The position numbers and the translations under genes are program-made. Source: an uncultured Pseudomonadota bacterium (GTDB lineage Bacteria; Myxococcota_A; Bradymonadia; Bradymonadales; Bradymonadaceae). From it: 32,051 nt of DNA. Position 1 is the stretch's first letter. Every line of letters begins with the position of its first letter. Positions 2,178 through 30,313 of this stretch are shown here, piece after piece. Location: NCBI GenBank assembly GCA_950059285.1, contig CATLTV010000043.1:1-32051 (forward strand), in the 5' to 3' direction. Under the pieces are notes generated by a model. That model ran no database searches and was not told where the DNA came from. It saw nothing but the letters and a program-made list of their open reading frames with translations.

Positions 2178-3200
2178 CTAAAGTTCAACCTTACGCACAG
2201 CGTTCCTGCGCCTGGAGTTTGCCTCTTCAATGTAGCGCATCACCGTGGAGATATCGCGGTGATGTGTCTGGGCCATAATTTCATCCAGAGTGGCGCCATT
2301 GAGGGCCGCCTGCACGCAAAAGCCGCGACGTAAGGAGTGACCAGAATACATGCTCTTTTCATACCCCGCCAACTCGGCAACTCTTCGAATTGAGTCCGTA
2401 ATTGCCTGTGGCCTGAGTGATGTCTCGCCGACATGACCCCATCGACCCACAGCACGAAGCAAGGGGCCTGACGATACTTTTGCCACGGCCTTCCATTGAG
2501 AAATGGCCAACACGGGACAGTAGCTTGGGTCTTTTTGCGATGTGAGCCACTTCTGATGACCCTCACCTGACTGGTCCGTCTTTGACTTACCAATATGAAT
2601 GCAAATCTCGTCGTCGTTATGTTCGGAGATATCCTCTACTTTAATGGCGACAAGCTCTGACTGACGAAATGCACCAAACCAACCGATTAAAAGGAGGGCC
2701 TTGTCGCGAATGGCGAGCAGGTCATCATCGGGACAGTCGTTCAGAGCATCAATCATTGCACGCATATCGGTTGCCACCAGAGGGGTTGCGCGCTTGGTAC
2801 GACGCCCGTAAGTACGAATCAAACCCTTGAACGCTTTCTTGACGCGCTCATCTCGTGTGGGCGACTTGTAATCAAAGCTTTTATGGGCTTTGCCAATGGT
2901 GATCAACCTGCGCTCAAGCGTCGAGGGCTTGAGGCTTTCAGCATAATCAAGCAGGTAATCCAGCACATCCTGTGCGCTGGCAGGCATCGGGTTTCTTCGC
3001 TGATCCTGACACCAGGAGAGCCAGTGTTTCCAGTCTCCTTTGTACGCTTGCTCGGTGTTTTCTGCGTAGAGATTACCAAGAAATTCCTCAAGCTTTTCAA
3101 CACGTTCCTTCTGTTGTTCAGCTTCTCTCTGAGACCACCCTGTGATATCCATATCCAGCGTCGCCAACGAGGTGTGTTCTGGTACATTAAAGTCCGTCAT
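2178..3200 (-). CDS. Tyrosine site-specific recombinase (phage integrase family)
   Basis: A 340-aa DNA strand-exchange enzyme. The N-terminal third (about 30-130) is the SAM-like core-binding region. The catalytic domain (about 140-335) carries the full set expected for the family: R179 in GAFRQSEL, K207 in GKSKTD, H288 and R291 in HSLRR, H314 in QTHHRD, and the nucleophile Y323 in MRYIEEA. It is intact, uses an ATG start, and ends before a hairpin. It reads away from parAB on the other side of the 3303-3357 hairpin. Without phage genes or obvious att repeats nearby, a role in resolving replicon multimers or in a past integration are both possible. XerC/D proteins are usually about 300 aa, so this is not a simple housekeeping Xer. 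Confidence 0.92.
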   Translation of the reverse strand: MTDFNVPEHTSLATLDMDITGWSQREAEQQKERVEKLEEFLGNLYAENTEQAYKGDWKHWLSWCQDQRRNPMPASAQDVLDYLLDYAESLKPSTLERRLITIGKAHKSFDYKSPTRDERVKKAFKGLIRTYGRRTKRATPLVATDMRAMIDALNDCPDDDLLAIRDKALLLIGWFGAFRQSELVAIKVEDISEHNDDEICIHIGKSKTDQSGEGHQKWLTSQKDPSYCPVLAISQWKAVAKVSSGPLLRAVGRWGHVGETSLRPQAITDSIRRVAELAGYEKSMYSGHSLRRGFCVQAALNGATLDEIMAQTHHRDISTVMRYIEEANSRRRNAVRKVEL

Positions 3201-3357: not shown

Positions 3358-3613
3358 GTTTTTATGTATTCTAACCACCATGTCAGAGTAAATACATACC
3401 ACGCCACAAATTACAGCCTGAACTTGCTGCTTGTGCAAAAGAGCCCTTGTCGACTGTACACAAACATGTATACATTACAACCATGTGCGAGGATCTCTGG
3501 CTGATTTCAATACCCTACGCACAACTCAATCCCGAGCACGGATGCTCGGCCATTTTATCAAGAGCAATCGCTATCGTATTGCTCCACAATCTATCTCCAC
3601 GGAAGGTTTCAAG
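3358..3613. promoter_or_regulatory. parA upstream region with palindromes
   Basis: There is no supported gene here. It holds an inverted pair TATGTATT (3363-3370) and AATACATA (3391-3398), and a 10-bp palindrome ATGTATACAT at 3466-3475. ParA-type partition operons commonly autoregulate at palindromes before parA, so these are candidate operator sites. No clear -35/-10 pair was identified. Confidence 0.4.
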
Positions 3614-4465
3614 ATGACAGCCACAGTGATCATGGATGACTCAAATTCGCCCCTTGAACAGGGCGCTCCTGTACGCTCTGCAAAGTTTGGCTCTCAAGCA
3701 AAAATCATCGCCATCGCATCAGAAAAGGGAGGTGTTGGGAAAACAGCACTCGCCGTGAACCTTGCCTATCTATGGGCAAAAGAAGGACTTTCTGTGCTTT
3801 TGCTTGATCTCGATACGCAGGGCAACGCCACGCGTCATGTGGGCCAGGAGTTGAGCGGTGAGGCACTGGAGAGCTGTACGTCTCCTGACCATCGCGCCAA
3901 AAATGATGCCGTGCTCCAACCCGATGCCCACGCCTTTGGCTTTGATGTCATTCGTGGAGGCCGCTATATCCTCGGCGCTGTGAGCAACATCCAACAAAAG
4001 CGTGTCCCTTCCATCGTCCTGCGAAAGCTGCTCCGCCCACTCAAAGCGCGTTACGATGTCATCGTCATCGATACACCCCCCACGCTCGGTGTACTCTCCA
4101 TCAATGCCATCGTCGCATCCTCACACCTGCTCATTCCTGTGCAACTTGAAGGTGCCGCACTTGATGGCCTTGATGCCATTCTTGAAACCACCGAGGAACT
4201 CCTCGATATCAACCCTGATCTTGAGCTGCTTGGCTCCGTCCCCATGATGCATGATCGACGCACTGCCATCTCCAAGATGTTGCTCCAGCGCCTCAAGGAC
4301 ATGGACTATGCTGCCCCCATTGATGTGCCCATTGGCCGTAACGTCTCCATCGCCGAGGCTTACCTGGCCGAGGAGCCCGTGGAGCTTTACGCCCCATCAA
4401 GCCAGGGCGCAAAGGACTTTAAACGTCTCTTGAAACAGCTCAATCAACGCCTGTTACATGTATAG
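3614..4465 (+). CDS. parA: ParA partition ATPase
   Basis: A 283-aa Walker-type ATPase that segregates replicon copies by moving on nucleoid DNA together with ParB. The deviant Walker A motif KGGVGKT is at residues 38-44 with the signature first lysine. Walker A' follows as LLLDLDTQGN, and the Walker B strand reads VIVIDTPP. The ATG at 3614 is preferred because GGAAGG at 3601-3606 is a good ribosome-binding site 7 bases before it. The open frame runs about 60 codons further upstream, but that part looks unlike ParA. There is no long N-terminal helix-turn-helix domain, which points to a type Ib-like or chromosomal-like ParA rather than a type Ia. parB follows after 103 bases containing a hairpin. 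Confidence 0.93.
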   Translation: MTATVIMDDSNSPLEQGAPVRSAKFGSQAKIIAIASEKGGVGKTALAVNLAYLWAKEGLSVLLLDLDTQGNATRHVGQELSGEALESCTSPDHRAKNDAVLQPDAHAFGFDVIRGGRYILGAVSNIQQKRVPSIVLRKLLRPLKARYDVIVIDTPPTLGVLSINAIVASSHLLIPVQLEGAALDGLDAILETTEELLDINPDLELLGSVPMMHDRRTAISKMLLQRLKDMDYAAPIDVPIGRNVSIAEAYLAEEPVELYAPSSQGAKDFKRLLKQLNQRLLHV

Positions 4466-4568: not shown

Positions 4569-5660
4569 ATGAGCAACAAGACAGAGCTCTTGCGCAAACG
4601 ACTCGGCTCGCGCAAGACAACCCGACAGATGTACGCCTCTCATCGCTCTGAACAACCCGTGGAACTTGCAAACCTCAGACTCGATGGCGGCACCCAACCA
4701 CGTGAACGATTTGATGAGGACATCCTCAAGGAATATGCCGAAAAAATGTCGGTCGATGATCGTGACATGGTCATCGACTCTCAGGGCCAACCCTGGGAAC
4801 CCATCGTGGTGTATGATGATGGCGATGACCTCTGGCTTGCAGATGGTTTCCACCGTGTTCGTGCTGCTCGTACTCTTGATATCTCATCCTTTCAGGCACG
4901 TATCATCATTGGCTCACAACGCGACGCTGTAAAGTTCTCGCTCTCGGCCAACGCTCGCCATGGGTTGCGTCGCACCAACGCCGACAAACGACGTGCCGTA
5001 GAAAGAGCCATTCAGGATGACGAGTGGGGCGCCCTGTCAGCACGCGCCATCGCAGATATTTGCTCCGTATCAGACTTCATGGTTCGGCAGGTACGTTCCT
5101 CACTGGAAGACTCTGGTGAGGTCGAGGTCCTGACCACGCGTATGGGTGCTGATGGCAAGGTCCACGACGTGAGCACACGTCAGCAACCTGCCACAAAAAA
5201 ACCTTCCTCTACCAGGAAAAAGAAAAAGGCACTGGCTAGCCTTGAGCACCCTAATAAACTTGCAAAATCACTTGATGCACATGTGGTCGCGCTGGACGAA
5301 CTCGACAGCACATCCAACACCAAAAAGGTCGATTGCATCATCGCCTACGCAGACTCTGCCATCCACTTTGATGCCCTCCTTGACCATCTGCCACGCCTGC
5401 TCAAAAAACAGGGCACCTTGCTCATCCCACTTAAACAGGGACGACAGGCTCTACTTGGACCCTCTCGTCTGGACCAGCTTGTGCAGACCAAAAAACTCGC
5501 ACACCCGCGCTGGATTGCGATTCAAAAAACTCGCAGCGTGCTCCTTGCCTGGGCTCCCCCTGCACAGGAACTTCCTTCATGGACATCACAAGTTGATGAT
5601 ATCATTGATATTATAGAACCAAAATCAACGCTTGTTCTGGTGCAAAACACAAGTAACTGA
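4569..5660 (+). CDS. parB: ParB-like partition protein with extra C-terminal domain
   Basis: A 363-aa DNA-binding partner of ParA. The N-terminal ParB/sulfiredoxin fold (about 29-125) shows GTQPRERF at 41-48 and ADGFHRVRAA at 91-100, where classical ParB has a GERR box. ANARHGLRRTNADKRRAV (127-144) leads into a helix-turn-helix at about 153-178. The segment 190-204 (RMGADGKVHD) is typical of phage-like ParB proteins. After a Lys-rich linker (209-220), residues 253-343 look like alternating strands and helices (VDCIIAYADS, LLIPLKQ, RSVLLAWAP). These resemble a methyltransferase-type Rossmann fold without a visible catalytic motif. The last 15 bases and the stop codon form part of the left arm of the hairpin at 5646-5720. 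Its place directly after parA supports the partition role. Confidence 0.87.
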   Translation: MSNKTELLRKRLGSRKTTRQMYASHRSEQPVELANLRLDGGTQPRERFDEDILKEYAEKMSVDDRDMVIDSQGQPWEPIVVYDDGDDLWLADGFHRVRAARTLDISSFQARIIIGSQRDAVKFSLSANARHGLRRTNADKRRAVERAIQDDEWGALSARAIADICSVSDFMVRQVRSSLEDSGEVEVLTTRMGADGKVHDVSTRQQPATKKPSSTRKKKKALASLEHPNKLAKSLDAHVVALDELDSTSNTKKVDCIIAYADSAIHFDALLDHLPRLLKKQGTLLIPLKQGRQALLGPSRLDQLVQTKKLAHPRWIAIQKTRSVLLAWAPPAQELPSWTSQVDDIIDIIEPKSTLVLVQNTSN

Positions 5661-5920: not shown

Positions 5921-6535
5921 ATGCTGCTCTCCATTGCTGAACTCCAGCAACATTTTGATGCCCATACACCAGAGCGCTATCCCAAACCCTCCAACATTCG
6001 CGCTCAGGCCAGTGTCGCACTCATTCTGTGCAATCAGGGCGGACAATCTCATGTGTGCATGATCAAGCGCACCTCTCGCGATGATGATCGCTGGTCTGGT
6101 CATATGGCGTTGCCTGGTGGACGTGCATCCCTTGAAGATCCTTCCCCTGTCGAGGTCGCTGTACGTGAGACCCATGAGGAAGTCGGTCTTATTTTAAAGC
6201 CCGATACACAATTGATTGGCTCGCTTGATGAGTTACAACTACTTCACCATGGCGACCAGAATCAGGGAGTGCTCTCTCCGCATGTATTTGCCATGACATC
6301 AAACACGCTCCCCACACTTGTCCCTGATCCAAGAGAAGTTGCTCAATCTTACTGGATTCCTCTTGAGACGCTGTTTGATCCTGGCTCCGCCATTACTCAT
6401 ACATTTGAGGATCGACGCTCCCAGGAGGTCATGAGCTTTCCCGCTCTTCAAGCTCAGGGAGAGATCATCTGGGGATTAACGTACCGTGTCCTGTTTAACT
6501 TTGCTTCGGTCATTCAGCGCACACTTCCTCTCTGA
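5921..6535 (+). CDS. NUDIX hydrolase, CoA-pyrophosphatase (NudL) type
   Basis: A 204-aa soluble hydrolase that should cleave a nucleoside diphosphate linked to another group. The complete Nudix box starts at GGRASLE and ends REThEEVGL (G-x5-E-x7-REUxEExGU), encoded at about 6117-6186. The domain start with an ASVALIL strand and the segment HMALPGGR match NudL/NUDT7-like coenzyme A pyrophosphatases. The ATG at 5921 is chosen because AAGAG at 5908-5912 lies 8 bases upstream and the family begins about here. The frame stays open to a GTG at 5855 with no ribosome-binding site. It stands alone, about 95 bases before the next gene. The substrate is inferred from family resemblance only. Confidence 0.85.
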   Translation: MLLSIAELQQHFDAHTPERYPKPSNIRAQASVALILCNQGGQSHVCMIKRTSRDDDRWSGHMALPGGRASLEDPSPVEVAVRETHEEVGLILKPDTQLIGSLDELQLLHHGDQNQGVLSPHVFAMTSNTLPTLVPDPREVAQSYWIPLETLFDPGSAITHTFEDRRSQEVMSFPALQAQGEIIWGLTYRVLFNFASVIQRTLPL

Positions 6536-8657: not shown

Positions 8658-8671
8658 GTTTGGCTTGACTC

Positions 8672-9109
8672 ATGACTCATGAACCCCACGCGCTGACAGA
8701 TGTATCGACCATCAAGAACGCAAGACAGATGGTTGTGAAAGGACAGACCTTTAGCGGATGTTCAAGCCTGGTGTTTCTTATCAGTATTGTCTTGCTCATA
8801 CCTTTTCTGGTTCTGTTCATCACAGGCATCGCCGCTGTGATGCATATCGAGTCAGGAGCCGAACCCATTGGTTATATTTTTATCGTACTGGGTTCTTATG
8901 GTCTTGGCATTGGTTCCTTGAGTTTGTGGGCATCTGTGCGCGCTGTGAAGCTCAATTTGCTTACATCAAAACAGGCCAGATCTTATCTGGACGACGTGCA
9001 TAAAAAACAACAGGCACAGCAAGGTTCCATATCGATGTCATATCTGGATGATGCAAAATCAGGTGCGCTGGAACTCTCCGATGACTCTGCTCCTGAACGC
9101 ATAAAATAA
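8672..9109 (+). CDS. Small two-helix membrane protein, unknown function
   Basis: A 145-aa protein with two hydrophobic helices at about 31-55 and 65-90, a short polar N-terminus and a charged, Gln-rich C-terminal tail. No motif or family is recognised. It starts 14 bases after the large membrane protein and reads in the same direction, so the two likely form one transcript and may act together at the membrane. It ends 10 bases from the stop of the convergent MFS-PlsC gene, with no hairpin between them. Confidence 0.7.
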   Translation: MTHEPHALTDVSTIKNARQMVVKGQTFSGCSSLVFLISIVLLIPFLVLFITGIAAVMHIESGAEPIGYIFIVLGSYGLGIGSLSLWASVRAVKLNLLTSKQARSYLDDVHKKQQAQQGSISMSYLDDAKSGALELSDDSAPERIK

Positions 9110-11244: not shown

Positions 11245-11299
11245 TTTAATGTATGTCTGAAGTGCGTCCTTGACTCAGTCCACGTGGAGTTGCTCTCTC

Positions 11300-12589
11300 A
11301 TGTCTTTTGGTGACCTGCGAAGTTTGTTTCAATCCCATCACTCTGATGAAGAGATCTGGGCCACGTTGTGTGCTTTTCTTGATGCCGAAATTCTGAGCGA
11401 TGATGAATGGGTGAGGGCGCTTGGCTACATTCAGGGTCAGTTAAGGCGTTGTGATCCTGCAAAACTCAAGGCTCCTGTGCACTGGGTTGATGACCTGTTT
11501 CATTACAAGAATCCACGTCATATGCTGGTTGCAAAGCATCTTGATACCACAGGACGAGATATTGGTGATGAATGCGTTCTGGATATGACATCATCATCCT
11601 GTGTCTCCAACCTGAGCCACCTGTCCATGGGCTACACCTACCATGCAAACGTGCGCTTTGAGTCGCTTGATTATGGCTGTGTACGTGAAATCGTCACATG
11701 CCCTCACCTTGCGCAAATCGAGTCACTCGCGTTTACGGGGCAGCACCTTCGACCTGATAGCCTTGTCGCGCTCATGGATGCCGACAATGTGTTTCAACAG
11801 TTAACTTCTCTTGATTTTAGCTTCAACGATTTAAACTTTTTAAGACCTGTGGACTTCAACGCAGTGCGCACGCATCAGCTTGAACATCTGGTGCTGGAAG
11901 GTTCCTTTCTTAGTGAACAAGGTGTACGTACACTGGCTATATCTGGAAATCTAGAGAATTTAAAATCATTAGACTTATCAAATAATTACGAACTTGAAAC
12001 ACACCATATCACACCTCATTTGGCGCGTATTTACCGTCTTGAATCATTGAGCTTACGAGGACTCCCAATGTCCTCATCAAGCCTGCTCAATCTGCTTGTT
12101 TCTCTGAGCACCACATCACTTGAAACACTTGATATAAGCGCCATGCGTTTATCTGAGGGGAGCAATGTTCTGGAGGTTATTCATGCGCTTGAAGCTCCCA
12201 CATGTGCCTCGCTCAAAACCTTGCATCTTGATGATTACTCCTGTGCACAGATTGACGTGGAACGCCTTATTGAGCACTGGAACAGGTGTGCCATGACATC
12301 ATTGCACACAGTGTCCTTGAAACAGTGGGATTTTCAAAAAGCTCATTTGAGCTGGCTTGTACATCTGATGGAGGAGGGCATCACGGTGCTCGACTGCCAG
12401 GATGCTCACCTTGATCTGACATCTCTTGAGCTGTTGTTATCCTTGCTGACCATGGATGTGAATTGCACGCTTGTGATCTCGGACAGGTTTCTTCCTGAAC
12501 ATGAGGAGGATATTCTTGCGCTTGTGGCCAGAGGGCAACCTCAAGGTGTCACTGTTCAGGTGAATTACTCCTCACTTCCACCATTTTAA
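11300..12589 (+). CDS. Leucine-rich-repeat protein
   Basis: A 429-aa protein without signal peptide or membrane segments. Residues from about 100 onward form irregular leucine-rich repeats of the ribonuclease-inhibitor-like style (LTSLDFSFND, LEHLVLEGS, LKSLDLSNN, LESLSLRG, LETLDISAM, LKTLHLDD). The first 90 residues are acidic and Trp-containing, resembling the helical cap seen before repeats in TIGR02996-like bacterial proteins, though I cannot confirm that domain. The ATG at 11300 has GGAG at 11286-11289; a TTG ten codons upstream also opens the frame. The role is probably protein binding, but no partner is visible. The other repeat protein, at the left end of the window, is of a different family type. 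Confidence 0.78.
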   Translation: MSFGDLRSLFQSHHSDEEIWATLCAFLDAEILSDDEWVRALGYIQGQLRRCDPAKLKAPVHWVDDLFHYKNPRHMLVAKHLDTTGRDIGDECVLDMTSSSCVSNLSHLSMGYTYHANVRFESLDYGCVREIVTCPHLAQIESLAFTGQHLRPDSLVALMDADNVFQQLTSLDFSFNDLNFLRPVDFNAVRTHQLEHLVLEGSFLSEQGVRTLAISGNLENLKSLDLSNNYELETHHITPHLARIYRLESLSLRGLPMSSSSLLNLLVSLSTTSLETLDISAMRLSEGSNVLEVIHALEAPTCASLKTLHLDDYSCAQIDVERLIEHWNRCAMTSLHTVSLKQWDFQKAHLSWLVHLMEEGITVLDCQDAHLDLTSLELLLSLLTMDVNCTLVISDRFLPEHEEDILALVARGQPQGVTVQVNYSSLPPF

Positions 12590-12767: not shown

Positions 12768-14318
12768 ATGAGCTTCCTCACAGATCGCCTCCGTACAGAA
12801 CTGGACTGTCGACAACTTGCTGAACATTATGGCGTGCGCTTTCGCAAACGCTCCACAGGTTGGTGGCTTGCTCACTGTTTTAACTCGGAATCTCACCGAC
12901 GCGGGGACCGTAACCCATCACTTTCCATCAGTGCTCAGGGCTACAAATGTTTCAGTGCCAACTGCGCCATCTCGGGTGATGCATTCACCATGATTGCTCA
13001 CTTTGAAGGGCTCTCCTTACGAGAGGACTTTGAAGAGATACTCAAAATTGCGAGCGCCAAGGCGAACCTTGATTACTCCACGCTCAGGTTAGAGGAAAAA
13101 CAACGCCATACCTCCAGACCTGTATACAAGAACCCTACGCAGTGGAAGCGCTACAAAAAGCGTGAAGAACGTGAACGACGTCGGCGCAAAACAGACCAGC
13201 TCAAATATGGTGCGTTATCGCCAGCAAGTAATCCTCTAACTCAGCCTGAACCAAAACCAAAGGCACCCTCCGAGGACTTGCGACAGACCATTTACCGCTT
13301 CATGGTGAGTACGCTTGATCCCAACACACCCCCTCCATTAAACGACCACTTCCCCGATCCTTTTCAAGATGCGTTCTCCATTGATCCTCGCCATAAACGC
13401 CTGGAAATCATGCAGAATATCTGGGACATTGTGGCTCCACTTGACCTCTCTGACCAGGCGGTAAAGTGGCTAAAATCAAGGGGAATCAACCCCGATATTG
13501 CGCATGCCTATGGATGTCGCGACTGGTCCAGTGCTGCTGATCAACTCCGCGAGTTGCTCTCCCTCTACTCTGTGGAGGAACTTGAGCAAACGGGCCTTGT
13601 GCGCACACAACAGAACAAGCAAAAGATATGGACGGGACTTCGTGCTCTTCAGCGTGAAGATTGGGCTCAGGGCCTTGGCGTACCTGTTGTTCATCCTGGC
13701 TGGCCTGTTGCTCCTATTGCCTGGCGATGGCGTCTGTTTAATCCATTCAAGACACGTGATGGCAAGTCCTTCAAGGCCATTGCTCAGTACAGTGGCGAAC
13801 CTCACATGCCATCCTTACCTCTGGGCATGACTCCTCCCACATCATCTGCGCTCAAGGATCTTTCACGATGGCCTTCTTTGAGTAGTACCCCTGAAGAGCC
13901 GCGCTATGCTGTGGTCCTGTGCGAGGGCGAACCTGACTGGCTCAGCGTGGCCGAGGTATCAAGTCACATTGAAAGTGATCTGTATATTGTGCCTGTGGGA
14001 CTTATCGCCATGAGCCATGGTTACCCTCCTCATATGTCAGGTATTCTTGAAGGCGCTGAACGTATTGTGTGTGTCATGGACAGAGGAAACACCAATAAGA
14101 AGTATGCGCTTACAGGCGGCGAGGTTGTCGTGGAGCAGGTTCGAGGCACCTTGCTTTATCAGGCGATGATGAATAATGAACCTTTTGAACATGCCTTTAA
14201 CCGCATTGAAAACAAGATCGTCAGCTCCTTGCAAAAGGATGACTTTGATGTCAACGACCTACATAAACATGGTCAACTTCAACCCCTTATTGAACAGTTA
14301 TTTGGAGATCTATTGTGA
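12768..14318 (+). CDS. Replicon-encoded primase (CHC2 zinc finger plus TOPRIM-like domain)
   Basis: A 516-aa putative DNA primase that would make RNA primers for the replicon. The N-terminus resembles the DnaG zinc ribbon: candidate ligands C37, H43, C61 and C66 surround NPSLSIS and YKCFSANC, followed by GDAFTMI. A basic, Arg/Lys-rich linker (about 120-150) and a less defined region follow. A TOPRIM-like segment has VVLCEGEPDW (E386, D390) and VCVMDRG (D438). The usual DxD metal motif reads DRG, so the second acidic residue is not where expected. The gene overlaps the helicase start by four bases (GTGA), indicating translational coupling. Zinc-finger/TOPRIM proteins next to RepA-like helicases occur in phages and plasmids; function is inferred from domains and context. 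Confidence 0.8.
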   Translation: MSFLTDRLRTELDCRQLAEHYGVRFRKRSTGWWLAHCFNSESHRRGDRNPSLSISAQGYKCFSANCAISGDAFTMIAHFEGLSLREDFEEILKIASAKANLDYSTLRLEEKQRHTSRPVYKNPTQWKRYKKREERERRRRKTDQLKYGALSPASNPLTQPEPKPKAPSEDLRQTIYRFMVSTLDPNTPPPLNDHFPDPFQDAFSIDPRHKRLEIMQNIWDIVAPLDLSDQAVKWLKSRGINPDIAHAYGCRDWSSAADQLRELLSLYSVEELEQTGLVRTQQNKQKIWTGLRALQREDWAQGLGVPVVHPGWPVAPIAWRWRLFNPFKTRDGKSFKAIAQYSGEPHMPSLPLGMTPPTSSALKDLSRWPSLSSTPEEPRYAVVLCEGEPDWLSVAEVSSHIESDLYIVPVGLIAMSHGYPPHMSGILEGAERIVCVMDRGNTNKKYALTGGEVVVEQVRGTLLYQAMMNNEPFEHAFNRIENKIVSSLQKDDFDVNDLHKHGQLQPLIEQLFGDLL

Positions 14319-15568
14319 GCAATGAAGAGAACCCTCCCGAGGATAATGCACCGCTGACTGACGGAGAAAATCGCGATGAAACTCCTGAGGAGAATCCTGT
14401 AAAAGAACTCTGGCGAGAAGCCTGGGACTGGCGAAAAAGTCAGGAAAAAGAGCGTCGTGCAGATCGTATTGAAGACCTCAAGAGTATGCGCAAGGATCTT
14501 CATGATAATGCGCGTGCCATTGATGATGCGTTGGCTGAGCTTGAAGGTAAAGGGGACTGGACCCAGCTCATGAAGCCACTCAAGAACTTTGGCTGGCTTC
14601 ATTCCGAACCTCCTCCTCGCCTGGCGCTCCTTGAATACAACCAGGATTGCGTCTTGCCTCTTGGCAAGGTGGGTTTCTTTGTTGGCGAGGGTGGTATTGG
14701 TAAGAGCTGGGCATTGACGCAGCTTGCCATCTCCGTGTGCACAGGTTCCTCCTGGCTTCAAACCTACAGGGTTCCTGAATATGCCATGGGTGGAGTGGTG
14801 ATGGCGATGGGTGAGGAAGATCCTCACGAGATGCATCGCCGTATTCACAACATTGTCAGCACGTTGGATCTGGCGGAGCATCACCTGAGTATGTTGGAGA
14901 GCAGGTTGTTCCCCTTGCCTCTGTCGGGCTTTTTCATGGAGTTTCTTGAAGATGGTGAGCGCAGTTTTGAGCATGAACGTTTTGAACAGCTTCTTATCAA
15001 GCATGCGCCCGAGCAGGGCTGGAAGTTGATCGTGCTCGATCCTGCGAGTCGTTTCATGGGTGTGGATGCAGAGAAGGATAATGCCTATGCGACACGTTTT
15101 GTGCAGTTGCTTGAGAGGCTGACACAGCTTCCAGGTAACCCTACAGTATTGTGTGCGCACCATACCACCAAGGCAGCAAGAACAAGTAGCGTGGGCGCAC
15201 GTAGTGTGGCCGCTCGTGGAGCGAGTGCGTTGACCGATGGTGCGAGGTGGCAGGGCAACCTGTTTACACCTGTGGACGAGGCCAGTGACGAATTCCAGGA
15301 CCATCTGGCGGTCTTCCAGATCACCAAATCAAACTACGGTCCAAAGCCGCCTGGGTTGTACCTCAAGCGCAAGGAAGGAAGTGGTGTGCTCGTGCCATTT
15401 CACGACACTGGAGCATCAGACAACTACCAGACAGTCACGGGACACACGGGGAATTTTGATCAGGACCAGCACTTCTTTAGCAAGGAAGATACACGAGACT
15501 TTGCCTCGAAGTCTTCACGTCAGACTACACATATCAAGCCAAGTTGGACTGAAGATATCGACTGGTAA
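14315..15568 (+). CDS. RepA-like replicative helicase (AAA_25/RecA fold)
   Basis: A 417-aa ATPase of the RSF1010 RepA/AAA_25 class, expected to form a hexameric ring that unwinds DNA at the origin. The first 90 residues are charged and partly coiled coil. The core has Walker A GEGGIGKS at 124-131, a glutamate motif in MGEEDP, Walker B LIVLDPAS with D242, and CAHHTTK (H282, H283), the usual sensor histidine position. An SVGARSVAARGASAL segment then matches the family's DNA-binding/arginine-finger region. It starts with GTG overlapping the primase stop codon and ends inside the base of a strong terminator directly before the iterons. Pairing with a primase and an iteron origin supports a replication role over a RecA-like repair role. 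Confidence 0.88.
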   Translation: MSNEENPPEDNAPLTDGENRDETPEENPVKELWREAWDWRKSQEKERRADRIEDLKSMRKDLHDNARAIDDALAELEGKGDWTQLMKPLKNFGWLHSEPPPRLALLEYNQDCVLPLGKVGFFVGEGGIGKSWALTQLAISVCTGSSWLQTYRVPEYAMGGVVMAMGEEDPHEMHRRIHNIVSTLDLAEHHLSMLESRLFPLPLSGFFMEFLEDGERSFEHERFEQLLIKHAPEQGWKLIVLDPASRFMGVDAEKDNAYATRFVQLLERLTQLPGNPTVLCAHHTTKAARTSSVGARSVAARGASALTDGARWQGNLFTPVDEASDEFQDHLAVFQITKSNYGPKPPGLYLKRKEGSGVLVPFHDTGASDNYQTVTGHTGNFDQDQHFFSKEDTRDFASKSSRQTTHIKPSWTEDIDW

Positions 15569-15631
15569 GCACGTTTCAGAGACAAAAAAAGCGGCCCTCA
15601 GGGCCGCTTTTTTTGTCTCTGAAACGTGCTT
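15567..15631. terminator. Perfect 31-bp hairpin terminator after the helicase
   Basis: The arms 15567-15597 and 15601-15631 are exactly complementary around TCA. A GC-rich tip is set on an A7/T7 segment, followed by a second stem that reaches back to the last base of the helicase stop codon. A further T run follows. It insulates the origin from primase-helicase transcription. Confidence 0.92.
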
Positions 15632-15642
15632 TTTACCAAAAC

Positions 15643-16354
15643 GATCCACAAAAGCTATTACGTTTTGTCCTCAAATTCGATTCGATCCACAAAAGCTATT
15701 ACGTTTTGTCCTGACCACCCGATGTGCGTACAGGGTGTATGTGGGTGTGGGACATGGGTGCTTCCATGTGAATTGATGTGTATTCAGGGGTATAGACAGG
15801 GGTCTTTCTACGCATTTGGGGGTAAAAACGATCCACAAAATCCATTACGTTTTGTCCTCAGGTTCAGTTTGATCCACAAAAGCTATTACGTTTTGTCCTC
15901 GAGATGGTCTCTGAACAGGTGAGTTTAGGTGCGAAAACGATCCACAAAATCCATTACGTTTTGTCCTGAGTTTTATTTGACGGGTATATTTAAGACCTAA
16001 AAGACGGGTCGTTGTTTTTATAAAAATAGTATTTTTAAGCAATAAAAACGATCCACAAAAGCTATTACGTTTTGTCCTCAGGTTCAATTCGATCCACAAA
16101 AGCTGTAACGTTTTGTCCCGATATTATTGGTCTAATAGACCTAGTTCGGCGTGAAAACGATCCACAAAAGCTATTACGTTTTGTCCTGAACCAAGAAAAA
16201 ATCCATTACGTTTTGTCCTGAACCGTCATTCAATCACGAAAATCCATTACGTTTTGTCCTCCGATCCACAAAAGCTATTACGTTTTGTCCTCCGATCCAC
16301 AAAAGCTATTACGTTTTGTCCTGCCGATCCACAAAAGCTATTACGTTTTGTCCT
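15643..16354 (+). repeat. Main iteron block, 13 copies of a 29-bp repeat
   Basis: Repeat starts are 15643, 15684, 15830, 15871, 15939, 16050, 16091, 16159, 16191, 16232, 16263, 16294 and 16326. The 5' half is GATCCACAAAA and the 3' half ATTACGTTTTGTCC, joined by GCT or TCC variants. The 3' half is nearly invariant; the copies at 16191 and 16232 have degenerate 5' halves. All copies share one orientation. Start spacings of 41 bases and 31-32 bases dominate. Direct repeats of this type beside a replication gene are the hallmark of iteron origins bound by a Rep initiator and used in copy control. Confidence 0.93.
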
Positions 16355-16444
16355 GAGCTTTTTTTGGGGTACCCTCTGATCCCCGCATTTTAAGCGGTCG
16401 ATCGACTAGAACTTTTGTCTGGTGGATTGCAAGAGAATAAGATC

Positions 16445-16486
16445 TATAGAGAATTCTCTATAGAGAATTCTTTATAGAGAAATTAC
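16445..16486 (+). repeat. 14-bp tandem repeat in the AT-rich origin segment
   Basis: TATAGAGAATTCTC at 16445-16458 is followed by TATAGAGAATTCTT (16459-16472) and the weaker TATAGAGAAATTAC (16473-16486). The first two copies overlap a perfect 20-bp palindrome at 16451-16470. Such short AT-rich repeats suit DNA unwinding or protein binding. Confidence 0.75.
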
Positions 16487-16533
16487 GCGCATGCGCGAGC
16501 TTGCCCTTTGGGGGGCAAGCTCGCGCTGCGCGT
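16485..16533. repeat. Large GC-rich hairpin in the origin
   Basis: GCGCGAGCTTGCCC at 16493-16506 pairs with 16513-16526. The stem continues through ACGCGCA (16485-16491) and TGCGCGT (16527-16533), with one bulged T at 16492, giving 21 bp. It has no T run and no gene to terminate. By analogy with IncQ ssi sites it could load the primase on single-stranded DNA. Confidence 0.6.
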
Positions 16534-16543
16534 TTCGAACAAA

Positions 16544-16596
16544 AATAAAAAATGGACCTGATTTTTTTATTAAAAAAATCAGGTCCATTTTTTATT
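16544..16596. repeat. Second large hairpin in the origin, AT-rich
   Basis: 16544-16569 is the exact complement of 16571-16596 (26 bp). The stem has ATGGACCTGAT in the middle, A/T runs at both ends and almost no loop. It lies 10 bases after the GC-rich hairpin. It could be a terminator protecting the origin, but no gene ends nearby, so an initiation site or structural element is equally likely. Confidence 0.65.
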
Positions 16597-16597
16597 A

Positions 16598-16797
16598 AAA
16601 TTTTCTCGACGAAAATTTAGAAAGTTTGAAGAAGGCCAAATCTTCCTTACCTGATTGTGATCAAGAAATTTTTCTTGAAAATCGCTAAAATTTCGCGATT
16701 TTTGGCTTAAAATCGCGAAAAATACTTAATTATCAACGTTTTAATTCAAAAATTGCGTTTTTTATGGGCCTGCATCGATCTGTCATGGATCGATGCA
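16598..16797. other. AT-rich palindrome-dense origin segment
   Basis: There is no gene here. Inverted repeats occur at 16598-16618 (AAATTTTC arms), 16661-16678 (TCAAGAAA arms), 16691-16720 (TTTCGCGATTTT arms) and 16771-16797 (TGCATCGATC arms). Low GC and position between two iteron blocks make this the likely DNA unwinding region. Confidence 0.6.
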
Positions 16798-16808
16798 CTT
16801 TTGGATTT

Positions 16809-16919
16809 GATCCACAAAAGCTATTACGTTTTGTCCTGAATCGTCGTTCAATCCACCGAATCCATTACGTTTTGTCCTGAATCGGTGACCAATCCACCGA
16901 ATCCATTACGTTTTGTCCC
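16809..16919 (+). repeat. Second iteron block, 3 copies
   Basis: Copies start at 16809, 16850 and 16891, exactly 41 bases apart, in the same orientation as the main block. The first copy is full consensus. The other two keep the ATTACGTTTTGTCC half but have AATCCACCGAA in place of the normal 5' half. The block lies about 115 bases before the initiator gene and may also repress its promoter. Confidence 0.9.
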
Positions 16920-17033
16920 GAGATGCAAGAAGTGCTTGGAAGTCTCGCCCTGGCGAGTTATGAAGGGATCTGTTCACCCTCAAGAAGGCGAGAGTTTTGG
17001 GGTGGTTGTGATATCATTTTTCCGTGAATTTCT

Positions 17034-18893
17034 GTGATGATGCTAGATTTTATCTCCAAAGATTTACCTGACTGGTTCAAGCGCTCGACGTTGTTGTTGC
17101 GCACCAGGGTGGTGCTTGGCGAGCTTGACGATGAAGCTCCTGGAGAGACCTTGCGTCAGTTGATTTCACAGGGATTGAGCGATGATCATGACCAGCTGGT
17201 GGTTGATTTTTTGACCTATGGAGACTTGCTTTCTGCAGACAACGAGGACTGGGTGAGCAAGGTGTTGATGCACCGCAAGACCTTGTTGAAGATGCTTAGC
17301 CATGCACACCATCGGCTTGATGTGCGCTACGAAGAAGGCAAGAAGTATGTTGCTGAAAACGTGGAGTTTTTTAGTGGTTGGGAGAGTCTCGTTAATGAGG
17401 CCACAGACTATCAGCTCAACGAGAACAAGCCCTGGTGGAGGTCGGGTGATCCGCTTCTGAATTTCAGTGAGATTTTGACGCATGGGAAAGACGTTAAAGC
17501 TTTGAAATCAAGTGGTTTTCGTCGAATTGATCAGAGCGTGTATGTTGAGCGTATTCGTCACACGATGATGCGACACCTGTTGGCGGATCTGGATCATCGG
17601 CCCGTGGAGTTGTACCTCGCAGCGCGAGTGCTCGTGGTGTATGCCATGGAGCAAAGACTCTGGAAAAAGGTTGGATTACGGACACTTATCAAGAACCATA
17701 CGACGGTTCTTCTCTCCAAGTGTCAGGAAGCCTTGGCGCGCCAGCATGCGTTGTTGCCGATGAAGCCTCTGTACTCGTTGCCACGCGAGGCGAATAACAT
17801 TTCAAAGTTCTTTGTGTCTCGTGCAGAGGACCTCGTGCTGGAGGACAAGAAGTCGATTGTGCGCGGGACGTTGAAGCGCTCGGGTGTGAAGGTTGTGACG
17901 GATCAGGGCGGTCAGCGAACGCTCTTTTTTGATGCAGACCTGGTGACAAAGCGTTCGGGCAAGCAGGATGCATACATCTCGCTTGAGCTAGCCACACCTC
18001 AGGCGGATATTCTGGGTGCGTTGATGAAGGCAATTGAGCAGTTCAACGTGGAGCCAGGTGTGTTTGAGCACTTGCCGCGAGTGTGTGCCGGGATGTTTGC
18101 CGCAGCACATCGAGATCGCAAGTTGCAGTTCAACTATCCAGGTACGTTCTGGGATACGGAGTCAGGCAACAGGCTGTGTCGCATCATTGGGTTTAATCCC
18201 GATAATGGTCGGCACCGCAAGCGTGTGCAAGATGCGCGGTTGTTGTTGCAGAACTTCTTTCTTCATCGTGAGGTCAAGGGGCGTGATGAGCAAGGTCGTA
18301 AGATCGAGCTCAAGTGGTCTGGACCGATTATCGAGGCGAGGCGAGCGAAGTTGGAGCTGTCGATCGACAAGAGAGAAGGGATGAGTGATCATCATGTCTT
18401 TCAGTCCTTTTCTATTTCCAAGGAGTTGTGGGAGATGACACTCCCTGAGGATGAGGGAGGCTCTCCATCATTTATGCTCCTTGATGAGCGTGCGTTTGCT
18501 CTGGATGATCGTAGCTCCTTGCCCTTCAATATTTATTGGACGCTCGTCAACCGTGCTTACATGGGAGCGTATACAAGCGTCCCAGAGGACCGCGTGCAAC
18601 CTGACGGGACATTCAGCCCACGGTTGTGGACGTTGCATGACTGGGCGGGCATGGAGAACACGTACATCAAGGTGAAGCGTATCAAGCAACGGTTCACCGA
18701 GGCGCTCGATCTGATGGTCGAACATGGACTGTTATTGTCCTGGCAGTGCGATGTACTGAGCGAGAGTCGTCAGAGCACGCTTGAAGATTTGAAGACGGCC
18801 AGGGTTCAGGTGCGCTTCTCGGAGGAGCAACTGGACAACTTCCCGGATACGATCATGAAGGTTGCAGGGTCGTCACATGCACGACTGAGCTGA
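17034..18893 (+). CDS. Putative replication initiator (Rep), unrecognised family
   Basis: A soluble, charged protein of 619 aa (617-619 depending on start). I cannot assign a family from sequence. Position is the main evidence: it is the first gene after the iteron origin and reads away from it, as rep genes usually do. The C-terminal part looks like tandem winged-helix DNA-binding units: a strand-rich stretch FMLLDERAFALDD, a helix-rich segment WTLVNRAYM, and WTLHDWAG leading to a helix with IKQRFTEALDLMVEHG. The N-terminal 200 residues are mainly helical. Start candidates GTG 17034, ATG 17037 and ATG 17040 overlap, and no ribosome-binding site stands out. Standard RepA/RepC/Rep_3 initiators are about 230-400 aa, so this is long. 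It might instead be another iteron-linked replication factor. Confidence 0.72.
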   Translation: MMMLDFISKDLPDWFKRSTLLLRTRVVLGELDDEAPGETLRQLISQGLSDDHDQLVVDFLTYGDLLSADNEDWVSKVLMHRKTLLKMLSHAHHRLDVRYEEGKKYVAENVEFFSGWESLVNEATDYQLNENKPWWRSGDPLLNFSEILTHGKDVKALKSSGFRRIDQSVYVERIRHTMMRHLLADLDHRPVELYLAARVLVVYAMEQRLWKKVGLRTLIKNHTTVLLSKCQEALARQHALLPMKPLYSLPREANNISKFFVSRAEDLVLEDKKSIVRGTLKRSGVKVVTDQGGQRTLFFDADLVTKRSGKQDAYISLELATPQADILGALMKAIEQFNVEPGVFEHLPRVCAGMFAAAHRDRKLQFNYPGTFWDTESGNRLCRIIGFNPDNGRHRKRVQDARLLLQNFFLHREVKGRDEQGRKIELKWSGPIIEARRAKLELSIDKREGMSDHHVFQSFSISKELWEMTLPEDEGGSPSFMLLDERAFALDDRSSLPFNIYWTLVNRAYMGAYTSVPEDRVQPDGTFSPRLWTLHDWAGMENTYIKVKRIKQRFTEALDLMVEHGLLLSWQCDVLSESRQSTLEDLKTARVQVRFSEEQLDNFPDTIMKVAGSSHARLS

Positions 18894-19158: not shown

Positions 19159-19755
19159 ATGGCACGTCCAGTCAGTATTTCAGATGAACAAATTTTGGAG
19201 GCTGCGCAGCAGCTCATTCTTGAGAAAGGCCTGGATGCGACGACGCTTGAGATAGCTCAGCATGCAGGCGTGTCGGAAGGCACCGTATTCAAGAGGTTCA
19301 AGACCAAGGAGCAGCTCTTTGTGGCGGTGCTCACACATGACCTGTTTCAACATAGTTGGATTCAGGTGCTTCATGACTATTCGGGAAGAGGAGATGTGCG
19401 TGCAAATCTTGAGCTTATCGCCGAGCGGATGCTCAATTTCTACATCGGAATGGTTCCCAAGATGCATATGATCATGTCCCGTCATGGGGATCTCAAGCAG
19501 AAGCTTATGAAGAATCCTGATACGTCACCACCGCTCAATGGCATTCGTCAGTTGGAAAGGTTTCTGAAAAAAGAAAGGGAGTTAGGAAGGCTCAAACCTC
19601 ATAACTCGGAGCACTATGCACGCATCCTCATCTCCACCATGCATCACTTTGCTGTGATGGAAAGTATGGATATCAATCAATATCTTACGCTCTCAAAGGA
19701 AGAGCACATTCGTCAAACTATCGCTGTGTTATTTGAACCTTTGATTTTAGAATAA
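19159..19755 (+). CDS. TetR/AcrR-family transcriptional regulator
   Basis: A 198-aa one-component regulator. The N-terminal TetR helix-turn-helix is clear (about 10-57): ILEAAQQLILEKG, ATTLEIAQHAGVSEGTVFKRF, then KEQLFVAVL. The C-terminal ligand domain is helical. It lies about 60 bases upstream of the efflux operon in the same direction, the usual arrangement for a repressor of RND genes that responds to a pump substrate. The 19756-19816 gap is very AT-rich and is the probable operator-promoter region, but I see no convincing palindrome. No ribosome-binding site is visible before the ATG. Confidence 0.9.
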   Translation: MARPVSISDEQILEAAQQLILEKGLDATTLEIAQHAGVSEGTVFKRFKTKEQLFVAVLTHDLFQHSWIQVLHDYSGRGDVRANLELIAERMLNFYIGMVPKMHMIMSRHGDLKQKLMKNPDTSPPLNGIRQLERFLKKERELGRLKPHNSEHYARILISTMHHFAVMESMDINQYLTLSKEEHIRQTIAVLFEPLILE

Positions 19756-19816
19756 ATTTGTAAATTATTTTAAATAAAATCAATGCGTTATCCCATGTTT
19801 TTACGTGAGGCTTTTT

Positions 19817-21313
19817 ATGTATATTTACCGCCATGCTCAGTCATGGCTTTCTTCTTCCACCATGGTATTACTCCTGGCTTTGTCCACGCAGGTCGCATGT
19901 TTTGGTAACCAAAAGGTACCAGATGTGAAAGAGACTGTGGAAATGCCAGCATCATTTGCGACATTGGAGCAGCAGGATCACGAGCTCCAGAAAGTTCCTC
20001 TGGACTCCTGGTGTTCTGATTTCAATCAGCCCGAGCTTGATCGGGTTGTGAATCTGGCGTTTGAAAAGAACCTGAACCTCATGGCGAGCTGGGCAAGGCT
20101 TGAGCAAAGCGCAGCGATACTGGAGCAAACGAGGTCCAATCGGATGCCTCAGGCAAACTTGAATGCCAATGCGTCTCGAAGCAAGTCACCTGCGTTTGGA
20201 GGTCAAAACATTCCTGGCCAGCCCACTTCCTTTACCAACAGTTTGTATCGCGTTGAAGGCACGGTCGCGTATGAGGTCGACCTGTGGGGGAAACTGGCGG
20301 CGCAACGCGAAGCTGCCGAGTTTGATTACCAGGCTAGTCGTGCAGATGTGGAGACAGCGGCGTTGTCGTTGACATCATCTGTGGCAGAGGCATGGTTTGA
20401 TGTGGTTGCAGCTCAACAGAAGTATGAACTGATTGAGGAGCAAATCAAACTGAATGAGCGCTATGTGGAGTTGTTGGAGCTTCGCTTTGAACAAGGTTTG
20501 TCAAGTATTCTGGACATTAACCAGCAGCGCCAGCAGATTCAATCGCTCCTGGCTCAGCAACGTAATGTGGAGCAACAACAGGTGCTTGCAAGGCAGCGTC
20601 TCGCGGTGCTGCTGGGAGCTACGCCTGAACAGGCAAAGACACTGTTCACCGTGGAAGGTTTGACGCTCCCCACCTTGAACACTATTCCTGAAGTGGGTGT
20701 GCCTGCGGACTTGTTGGAGCGTCGCCCTGATTTACGTGCGGCCTCACTTCGACTGGAAGCCGCTAACAAGCGTATTGCAGTGGCAGTGCGCGAACGTCTT
20801 CCCACATTACAGCTTTCCTTGAGCACATTTTTGCAGGCGTTGGAACTTGCCAACCTCGTCAATGATGTCTTCTGGAGCGTGGCTGGAGCAGCCACACAAC
20901 CTCTCTTTGATGGTGGTCGTAGACGACAGGAAGTCGTTCGCGCAGAAGCCGCTCAAAAAGAGGTTTTTTATACCTATGCAAATACACTGTTGACGGCCCT
21001 GAATGAGGTTCAGAGCGCGCTTGTCTCGGAACATTATCAGGCTCAGTTTATCGAGGACCTTCAACAGCAACATCAGATCGCGGAGACGTCCTTGACGCTT
21101 TCAAGAGAGCGTTATCAGCGCGGTAATTTCGATTTTTTACGCGTACTTACAGCCCTTCAATCCCTCCAACAAATTGAGCAAAGTATGGTCGACGCTCAAC
21201 GACTGCAGCTCACCAACCGCGTACAGCTTTGTCGCGCTCTTGGTGGTTCCTGGACTCAAGACCTTCAGCCACCCAAGACCAACTCATCAGCACAATCAAG
21301 CGCGTCAAAGTAA
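19817..21313 (+). CDS. Outer membrane factor of the efflux system (TolC/OprM-NodT type)
   Basis: A 498-aa outer membrane channel lipoprotein. Its signal sequence ends in a lipobox-like STQVAC, with the lipidated cysteine at 28. Two homologous coiled-coil halves follow, as in the RND outer membrane factor family: one with VAYEVDLWGKLAAQREAA and the other with TQPLFDGGRRRQEVVRAEAA. VPADLLERRPDLRAA, a strong family signature, lies between them. The ATG at 19817 has GAGG at 19807-19810; a GTG at 19805 is also in frame. The membrane fusion protein gene begins 13 bases after its stop. It would form the exit duct of the tripartite pump. Confidence 0.94.
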   Translation: MYIYRHAQSWLSSSTMVLLLALSTQVACFGNQKVPDVKETVEMPASFATLEQQDHELQKVPLDSWCSDFNQPELDRVVNLAFEKNLNLMASWARLEQSAAILEQTRSNRMPQANLNANASRSKSPAFGGQNIPGQPTSFTNSLYRVEGTVAYEVDLWGKLAAQREAAEFDYQASRADVETAALSLTSSVAEAWFDVVAAQQKYELIEEQIKLNERYVELLELRFEQGLSSILDINQQRQQIQSLLAQQRNVEQQQVLARQRLAVLLGATPEQAKTLFTVEGLTLPTLNTIPEVGVPADLLERRPDLRAASLRLEAANKRIAVAVRERLPTLQLSLSTFLQALELANLVNDVFWSVAGAATQPLFDGGRRRQEVVRAEAAQKEVFYTYANTLLTALNEVQSALVSEHYQAQFIEDLQQQHQIAETSLTLSRERYQRGNFDFLRVLTALQSLQQIEQSMVDAQRLQLTNRVQLCRALGGSWTQDLQPPKTNSSAQSSASK

Positions 21314-21326
21314 GAGAGTTTTTCAT

Positions 21327-22553
21327 ATGTTAAAGACAGTTATCAAGATCCTCCTCCCTCTGCTCATTCTGGGTGCTGCCATCGGTTGTGCTACCACCCT
21401 GGTCAAGAGTCGCCCCAAACCCCCCAAACAAGAGCGTCAAGTTCAGGCATACCTCGTTCAAGCCATGCCCGTGGAGAAGAAGTCACATCGTATTGATGTG
21501 CGCGCCAAGGGTACGGTCACCGCAGCCAGAAGACTTCAGGTGCAACCGCAGGTGACAGGCCGCTTGCGCTCAGTCTCGGACTCGGCCATTCCTGGCGGTA
21601 TTGTGAAAAAAGGCGATGTGCTCGCGCGTATTGATGCCACAGATTACCGCCAAAATCTCAATGAAAGCCAGACTGGTCTTGAAGATGCCAAGGCTCGCCT
21701 TGCACAGGAACAGGGCCAACAGATTATTGCACAGCGTGAGCTGGAGCTTTTTCAACAAACTCAAGAAAGTAATGAGCAACAGTCCTCTCTGGATGACACA
21801 TCACTTGCGTTGAGACAGCCTCAGCTCAAGATTGCCAAGGTCGCCGTGCAGGCAGCCGAGACGCGTCTGGAGCGCGCAAAAACAAACCTCTCAAGAACCA
21901 CGCTCAAGGCTCCATTTAACGCGCTTGTATTGAGTGAATCCATGGAGAATGGTCAGCTTGTTACACCTCAAAGCGTGCTCGCTACCATTGTGGGTACGGA
22001 TGCTTTCTGGATTCGTGCCAGTGTACCCATGTCCCAGCTTTCAAGAATTGCCATCCCTGGCTTTAACTCCAAGGAAGCGTTGGGAAGTGAAGTGACCGTG
22101 GAGATCGATGCAGGAGAGCAGAAGTCCTCACGAAAGGGTCATGTGCTGCGCCTCCTTGGTGAGCTTGATCAGGTCGGTCGCATGGCTCAGATTATGGTGC
22201 AGGTTGACGATCCTTTGCTCCTTGAGAGTGAGAACAAAGAAAAGGGAATGCCTTTGTTGTTAGGAGGATACGTTGATATTTTGTTCGCTGGTTCGCAAGA
22301 AATGCAGCTTGTGCAGATTCCTCGCCAGGCCATTCACAATGGTGATGAGGTCTGGGTCTATGCCAACGATAGTACGCTTGAGATCAGGACCATTCATGTG
22401 ATGGCAACCTTTGAAGATTATGTGCTCGTGTCCTCTGGTATTGAAGAGGGCGAACTCCTTATCACAAGTCAGATTGGCTCACCTGTGTCAGGTATGCAGC
22501 TTCGACGTCTTGAAGAATCCTCGACATCAGCAGCCAAGGGAGGTGACAAGTGA
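21327..22553 (+). CDS. Periplasmic membrane fusion protein (AcrA/MexA type)
   Basis: A 408-aa adaptor between the RND pump and the outer membrane factor. The signal peptide ends in AAIGC, so it is probably a lipoprotein with Cys21. A lipoyl/barrel-sandwich half (VTAARRLQVQPQVTGRL, then GDVLARIDATDYR) precedes a long helical hairpin. The second lipoyl half (TTLKAPFNALVLSES) and the beta-barrel (LVTPQSVLATIVG) follow, and a membrane-proximal region ends near GIEEGELLITS. The ATG at 21327 is chosen because the signal peptide begins there and GAGAG lies upstream. The frame opens earlier inside the preceding gene, but that is spurious. Its stop overlaps the pump GTG start by four bases. Confidence 0.94.
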   Translation: MLKTVIKILLPLLILGAAIGCATTLVKSRPKPPKQERQVQAYLVQAMPVEKKSHRIDVRAKGTVTAARRLQVQPQVTGRLRSVSDSAIPGGIVKKGDVLARIDATDYRQNLNESQTGLEDAKARLAQEQGQQIIAQRELELFQQTQESNEQQSSLDDTSLALRQPQLKIAKVAVQAAETRLERAKTNLSRTTLKAPFNALVLSESMENGQLVTPQSVLATIVGTDAFWIRASVPMSQLSRIAIPGFNSKEALGSEVTVEIDAGEQKSSRKGHVLRLLGELDQVGRMAQIMVQVDDPLLLESENKEKGMPLLLGGYVDILFAGSQEMQLVQIPRQAIHNGDEVWVYANDSTLEIRTIHVMATFEDYVLVSSGIEEGELLITSQIGSPVSGMQLRRLEESSTSAAKGGDK

Positions 22554-30150: not shown

Positions 30151-30313
30151 GGCGTGGTATCTCGTGTGTAATTGACCTGTGACAACGTGATGAAAAGTAG
30201 TGATATGTCTTTTGCAAAGAGATGCGAGCATTTGTCAATCACAGAAGTCATGGGATTCTGTGCATGACAGCTGTTACGTCCTGTGCAGTGAGATGCGTGC
30301 TGTAAAAGAGTGA

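Follow-up and report, generated by a model that had tools for sequence, protein, structure and literature searches.

Organization of the locus

The window, that is, the whole stretch of 32,051 bp analysed here, is a contig of an uncultured bacterium of the family Bradymonadaceae. It carries genes for a primase, a replicative helicase and a predicted replication initiator, an array of iterons, and genes for partition. The main features are the following.

2178..3200, - strand: Xer-like tyrosine recombinase, possibly for multimer resolution (Phage_integrase E 1e-14; XerD-type NCBIfam matches)
3431..4465, + strand: ParA partition ATPase (AAA_31 E 3e-38; homologues on sibling replicon contigs)
4569..5660, + strand: ParB-like partition protein (PHROG 1033 ParB-like E 3e-13; homologues on 5 sibling replicon contigs)
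12768..14318, + strand: DnaG-type primase, 516 aa, with an N-terminal CHC2-type zinc finger and a C-terminal TOPRIM-like region (EGxPD ... DxND)
14315..15568, + strand: hexameric-type replicative helicase of the RSF1010 RepA family, 417 aa (AAA_25 match)
15567..15631, no strand: perfect 32-bp inverted repeat with a 1-nt loop, probable bidirectional terminator ending the primase-helicase operon
15634..16921, + strand: iteron array of 16 direct repeats of ~28 bp, divided into a left block of 13 and a right block of 3
16354..16815, no strand: candidate DNA unwinding region between the iteron blocks, A+T-rich, with repeats and hairpins
17034..18893, + strand: predicted replication initiator, 619 aa, with a helical N-terminal domain (1-235) and a dual winged-helix region (235-600)

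The open reading frames (ORFs) of the primase, helicase and 619-aa initiator are intact at these coordinates; the real start of the last may be the ATG at 17037 or 17040. The 4-base overlap between primase and helicase that was described in the initial annotation is present at 14315-14318, and the ParAB genes that it placed in the same region were detected as ParA and a ParB-like ORF. That annotation also had the primase-helicase operon reading into the iteron origin, but the perfect inverted repeat lies in between and looks terminator-like by eye, so the operon probably does not do so. The contig was further to be checked for circularity and core genes: a terminal overlap was looked for and not found, the contig being linear in the assembly, and no core gene was found among the window ORFs scanned. 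Neither the window nor the sibling stretches, which are parts of incompletely assembled replicons, contained a tRNA.

As replicon cargo, positions 19159-25861 encode a TetR regulator and, after it, all components of an RND efflux system (outer-membrane protein, HlyD-type adaptor and AcrB-type pump). Near the contig end lie, both on the - strand, a 1427-aa multidomain surface-type protein (Ig/PKD/beta-helix; 25948-30231) and an HmuY-like haem-binding protein (30485-31678). Leucine-rich-repeat-like proteins are a repeated feature of this genome's replicon contigs, being found at 27-974 and 11270-12589 of the window and at 6940-8739 of a sibling contig (L016).

The iteron origin

Sixteen copies of ACGTTTTGTCC occur at 15660-16918, all on the + strand and none on the - strand. 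The iteron can be written approximately as GATCCACAAAAGCTATTACGTTTTGTCC, in which the 3' part, ACGTTTTGTCC, is invariant and the 5' part, GATCCACAAAA, more variable; spacings of 31/32 and 41 bp are frequent. In the 6.65-Mb genome there are 15 occurrences of the core 14-mer ATTACGTTTTGTCC, all within the window array, and 0 of its reversed control. The proposal of an iteron origin between helicase and initiator is thus upheld by 16 same-strand iterons that are confined, within the genome, to this contig. As regards an analogy with crtS, the rest of the genome lacks the iteron core, but a crtS need not resemble iterons.

Between the two iteron blocks, the candidate unwinding region reaches 83% A+T in 60 bp and includes tandem TCTATAGAGAATTC repeats (16443-16481) and hairpins at 16493-16526 and 16544-16596. 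An exact DnaA box, TTATCCACA, was found in 0 of 11 origins of the initiator family described below, and looser matches stood at about the shuffle level (the host's own DnaA box may differ). GATC is about two-fold denser in the origins than in their flanks (10.65 versus 5.15 per kb), an enrichment seen in the origins of 10 of the 11 arrays, because most iterons contain GATC. Dam-type control of the kind known from Vibrio ori2 was considered and rejected: the origins are GATC-enriched, yet no Dam-family methylase (PF02086) was found in either genome with the initiator family, so that Vibrio-like methylation control is not indicated. A common second origin motif was likewise rejected, as TATAGAGAA-like sequences cluster in the window and C74 only.

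A family of predicted initiators with private arrays

The window genome (6.65 Mb) holds six divergent initiator copies on six contigs, the five others being 36-49% identical to the window initiator in local alignments. Six more copies come from MAG CAJXPN, a second genome in the same family that carries the label uncultured Myxococcales. A single-protein search of genome contigs returned nothing and a profile search this second genome only; no further genome with the initiator was detected among the 57 of the class or the 379 of the phylum. The family as aligned comprises 12 members, window copy included, from two fragmented assemblies.

Repeat arrays with a period of 28-45 bp lie within 1.5 kb, upstream or downstream, of 11 of the 12 initiator genes, and the twelfth gene, which has no visible array, ends near a contig end. 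Only one other array of this period was found in 195 kb of initiator contigs. Each array has its own sequence; spacings across arrays are mostly 31-33 or 41-43 bp, or roughly three or four helical turns, as would be expected for initiators stacking on one face. The iterons of the closest paralogues can be aligned: C43/C2 and C43/C12 each reached p 0.002, the lowest value that 500 shuffles allow. As 55 pairs were tested, most of the other pairs with p 0.01-0.05 carry little weight. ParA homologues are present on 6 of the 12 initiator contigs and ParB-like ones also on 6 of 12, with one or both on 7 of 12. That these are replicons is best supported by this recurrent set of gene, array and partition functions, and the window bacterium probably runs several of them side by side.

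Helicase-primase homologues were not found beside the eleven sibling initiators, ten of which have iteron arrays, in the examined stretches of their contigs. Co-occurrence of all three genes, which the initial annotation had proposed as a check, is seen in part: initiator and iterons recur (11 of 12), and the helicase-primase pair was not found with the siblings on these stretches.

One sibling contig (L015; G000:C155) has a second repeat array, of period ~31-35 bp, at 6080-6458, far from its initiator, as well as three tandem arrays of the octamer ATAACGTT at 5511-5576, 8815-8856 and 12118-12183. These extra arrays are possibly partition sites or a second origin.

Sequence and predicted fold of the initiator

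The 619-aa protein had no sequence match in Pfam, NCBIfam, PHROGs, PDB, plasmids, phages or viral contigs. A tblastn search against 72,556 plasmids found no match, RepC included, and Pfam Rep-family models such as Rep_3 matched none of the 12 family members. Judged by sequence, the family is outside any catalogued one.

An AlphaFold2 model of the protein, built from the 12-sequence alignment, has a pLDDT of 79.6. A Foldseek search of this model against the PDB gave no significant match; when the candidates were realigned over residues 234-598, RctB (5tbf) reached Z 11.9 over 246 residues, pi (2nra) Z 11.0 over 219 and RepE Z 10.5 over 211, with about thirty RepE entries at Z 9.3-10.6 and the next unrelated chain at Z 6.8. 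On this basis, namely realigned Foldseek candidates and a 12-sequence model, the protein is predicted to be a Rep/RctB-type dual winged-helix initiator that carries an additional, mostly helical N-terminus of ~235 residues. A separate model of the N-terminal domain (pLDDT 84) matched designed cages and chaperonins at Z no higher than 6.2, which provides no usable lead.

The initial annotation had called this an initiator of no recognised family and had suggested structure prediction of the 17034-18893 product. No catalogued sequence family, and no known Rep family, matches it; an alien initiator is nevertheless not supported, in that for its C-terminal 365 residues the prediction is a dual winged-helix fold like that of the Rep, pi and RctB initiators. 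Given this predicted fold of residues 234-598, it is not a new kind of initiator.

Among viral predicted structures, Foldseek returned one strong match (E 1.1e-6), A0A8S5V5R6, a 584-aa uncharacterised protein of 'Myoviridae sp. ctrEx11'. The model-based match suggests that some phage or phage-plasmid carries an initiator of comparable size.

The helicase-primase pair

The helicase matches AAA_25 of Pfam at E 7e-26 and RSF1010 RepA (1g8y) at a phmmer E of 5.6e-17. Its plasmid homologues are IncQ RepA proteins and, closer, the ATPase of Rhabdochlamydia plasmids; these matches mark it as a true relative of RSF1010 RepA.

For the primase, the DnaG-like zinc finger of the first reading was confirmed by TIGR01391 dnaG (E 3e-8) and by Pfam Zn_ribbon_DnaG at E 3e-5, slightly below the cut-off; the PHROG DNA primase profile matched at E 1e-10. 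The C-terminal TOPRIM reading comes from alignment with relatives, most of which share EGxPD and DxND and one of which is above the cut-off for Toprim_2. The second acidic motif departs from the usual one, reading DxGN both in the window and in the second genome, so that primase catalysis is best regarded as putative. No match to the primase was found in plasmid records, IncQ included. A second DnaG-type zinc-finger primase homologue of 443 aa, 30-40% identical, is found in the same genome (L017, G000:C279, 2-1330, - strand) with no helicase homologue adjacent.

Each of the two genomes has one copy of this type of helicase, and they are the only 2 of the 379 phylum genomes with a close one (64% identity or more). 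The second-genome helicase, 64% identical, is preceded by a primase whose end alone lies on the contig. No iterons were found in the 7.7 kb downstream of it and no initiator homologue on its contig, which indicates that linkage of the three parts is not constant. The helicase and primase could act for a single replicon, for more than one in trans, or for neither.

A wider class of loci

Weaker helicase matches (28-46% identity) were found in 18 further genomes of the phylum, and the weakest of these matches may represent AAA proteins of other kinds. Of 12 regions surrounding the better ones, 9 have arrays of 20-22-bp repeats within a few kb. At one such locus (L081), a primase-like ORF, the helicase and a 460-aa ORF follow one another with 4-base overlaps each, and 21-bp repeats come next; another (L082) is arranged likewise, its large ORF being 600 aa long. 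The primases of L073, L079 and L082 have a CHC2 or TOPRIM match above the cut-off.

These related Myxococcota loci, with primase, helicase, an ORF of 460-600 aa and 21-22-bp iterons, make the window a variant of a wider plasmid class, which is apparently uncatalogued. The window departs from the wider layout in having its iterons between helicase and initiator and in its larger repeats.

The loci with RSF1010 RepA-type helicases near 20-22-bp iteron arrays (L071-L082) belong to genomes G217, G141, G105, G198, G070, G085, G372, G238, G358, G302 and G054, and in several the helicase is preceded by a DnaG-like primase and followed by a 400-600-aa ORF outside known families. One common initiator family was considered and rejected: these 400-600-aa Myxococcota ORFs and a 466-aa Rhabdochlamydia ORF have no profile similarity to the 619-aa initiator, which could still share a fold with the ORFs of the other helicase loci.

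Comparison with known replicons

The best fold match is RctB, which acts at ori2 of Vibrio chromosome 2. Both initiators are large and have a dual winged-helix core, and ori2 also has many direct, GATC-rich iterons and an A+T-rich region. Unlike RctB, to which it has no detectable sequence similarity, the window initiator has by its length no equivalent of the C-terminal domain IV; and unlike at ori2, no exact DnaA box is found in the window and no Dam-type methylase match in the genome, and helicase and primase genes adjoin. RctB, at 658 aa, has itself been described as having no detectable sequence homology to other Reps (PMC6090056). The earlier statement that the initiator is about twice the usual size accordingly holds against the usual Reps but not against RctB, which is just as long.

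R6K pi, F RepE and pPS10 RepA share the dual winged-helix fold and have iteron arrays; they are proteins of ~230-305 aa without the N-terminal domain of ~235 residues, and use host DnaB.

IncQ plasmids replicate by strand displacement from ssi hairpins; the hairpins between the iteron blocks of the window may or may not act in this way. With IncQ/RSF1010 repBAC it has in common the three-protein logic, a homologous RepA helicase and iterons. In contrast to IncQ, its primase is of the CHC2/TOPRIM type and not the MobA-RepB type, its initiator is about twice the usual size with no match to RepC, it has ParA and ParB-like genes, and its iterons number 16 of ~28 bp against about three of ~20 bp (PMC7557826). 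The IncQ logic that was first read into the locus thus stands as regards the primase, helicase and initiator set and the RepA-type helicase, and fails as regards primase type, iteron number and size, and ParAB.

Chlamydial plasmids also combine a helicase (Pgp1), a dual winged-helix initiator (Pgp2), iterons, ParAB and Xer. Pgp2 was identified via the folds of RctB, pi and RepE (DALI Z 10.8, 13.1 and 12.7) and then shown to be an iteron-binding initiator (PMC11895440). The best plasmid match to the window helicase is on the Rhabdochlamydia plasmid NZ_CP075586 (39% identity over 64% of the query), where the helicase is followed, with a 4-base overlap, by the 466-aa ORF, and 21-bp repeats are present. 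These plasmids differ from the window in that no primase homologue was found on them and in the sequence of the initiator, and the Rhabdochlamydia repeats lie after the ORF instead of between helicase and initiator.

Proposed mechanism and alternatives

We consider it very likely that the region provides replication and maintenance to an iteron-controlled plasmid, or to a secondary replicon derived from a plasmid, in the following way. The 619-aa protein would bind its 16 cognate iterons via its two winged-helix domains, open the A+T-rich stretch between the iteron blocks and load a hexameric helicase by protein contact. The natural candidates on this replicon, over host DnaB and DnaG, would be the RSF1010 RepA-type helicase and the DnaG-type primase encoded in one operon beside the origin. 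ParA and the ParB-like protein would serve partition, and the Xer-type recombinase multimer resolution. The genes, the iterons and their uniqueness, and the recurrent presence of a private array beside 11 of the 12 homologues are observed, and the dual winged-helix fold is predicted.

Which helicase is loaded is the main point of divergence. The initiator could load host DnaB, as RctB and RepE do, with the primase-helicase operon accessory or trans-acting and dispensable for this origin; we regard this as a real possibility, at somewhat less than an even chance. It would account for the five other initiator genes of the genome, at least four of them with arrays, that have no helicase homologue beside them, for the single helicase copy per genome, and for the second-genome pair lying away from any initiator or iterons found. 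Against it, the window pair directly adjoins the origin, L081 and L082 have primase, helicase, large ORF and iterons in a single run with 4-base or near overlaps, and an exact TTATCCACA DnaA box is missing from all 11 origins, looser matches being near shuffle level. A rather unlikely alternative is that a single pair acts in trans for all six of the genome's replicons, as a plasmid-borne priming machine with putative contacts. The ratio of six initiators to one helicase in both genomes, and the restriction of the close helicase (64% or more) to these two of 379, would fit, but sibling replicons may use host DnaB, and linkage and copy number are read from fragmented genomes.

The suggestion that the replicon might do without host DnaA, DnaB and DnaG is plausible, and is weakened by the eleven sibling initiators, ten with iteron arrays, that have no helicase-primase homologues on the examined contig stretches. 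Its broadest form, in which six co-diverged initiator-iteron pairs share one trans-supplied, plasmid-encoded helicase-primase and the whole replicon set is independent of all three host proteins, we hold to be distinctly improbable. That the region is a decayed or integrated remnant that has lost replication seems very improbable: the contig ends show no overlap and it is linear in the assembly, as a remnant might be, but none of the replication ORFs is disrupted, the iterons show good conservation, and paralogues that have diverged retain matching arrays of their own.

Significance

To our knowledge, very few native plasmids are known from Myxococcota. The replicon adds an uncatalogued family of large, predicted dual winged-helix initiators, and its twelve co-diverging members, eleven with a visible array, in two genomes form a set for studying the evolution of specificity and plasmid compatibility. 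Beyond this family, the wider loci suggest a class of Myxococcota plasmids that sequence-based plasmid typing would miss.
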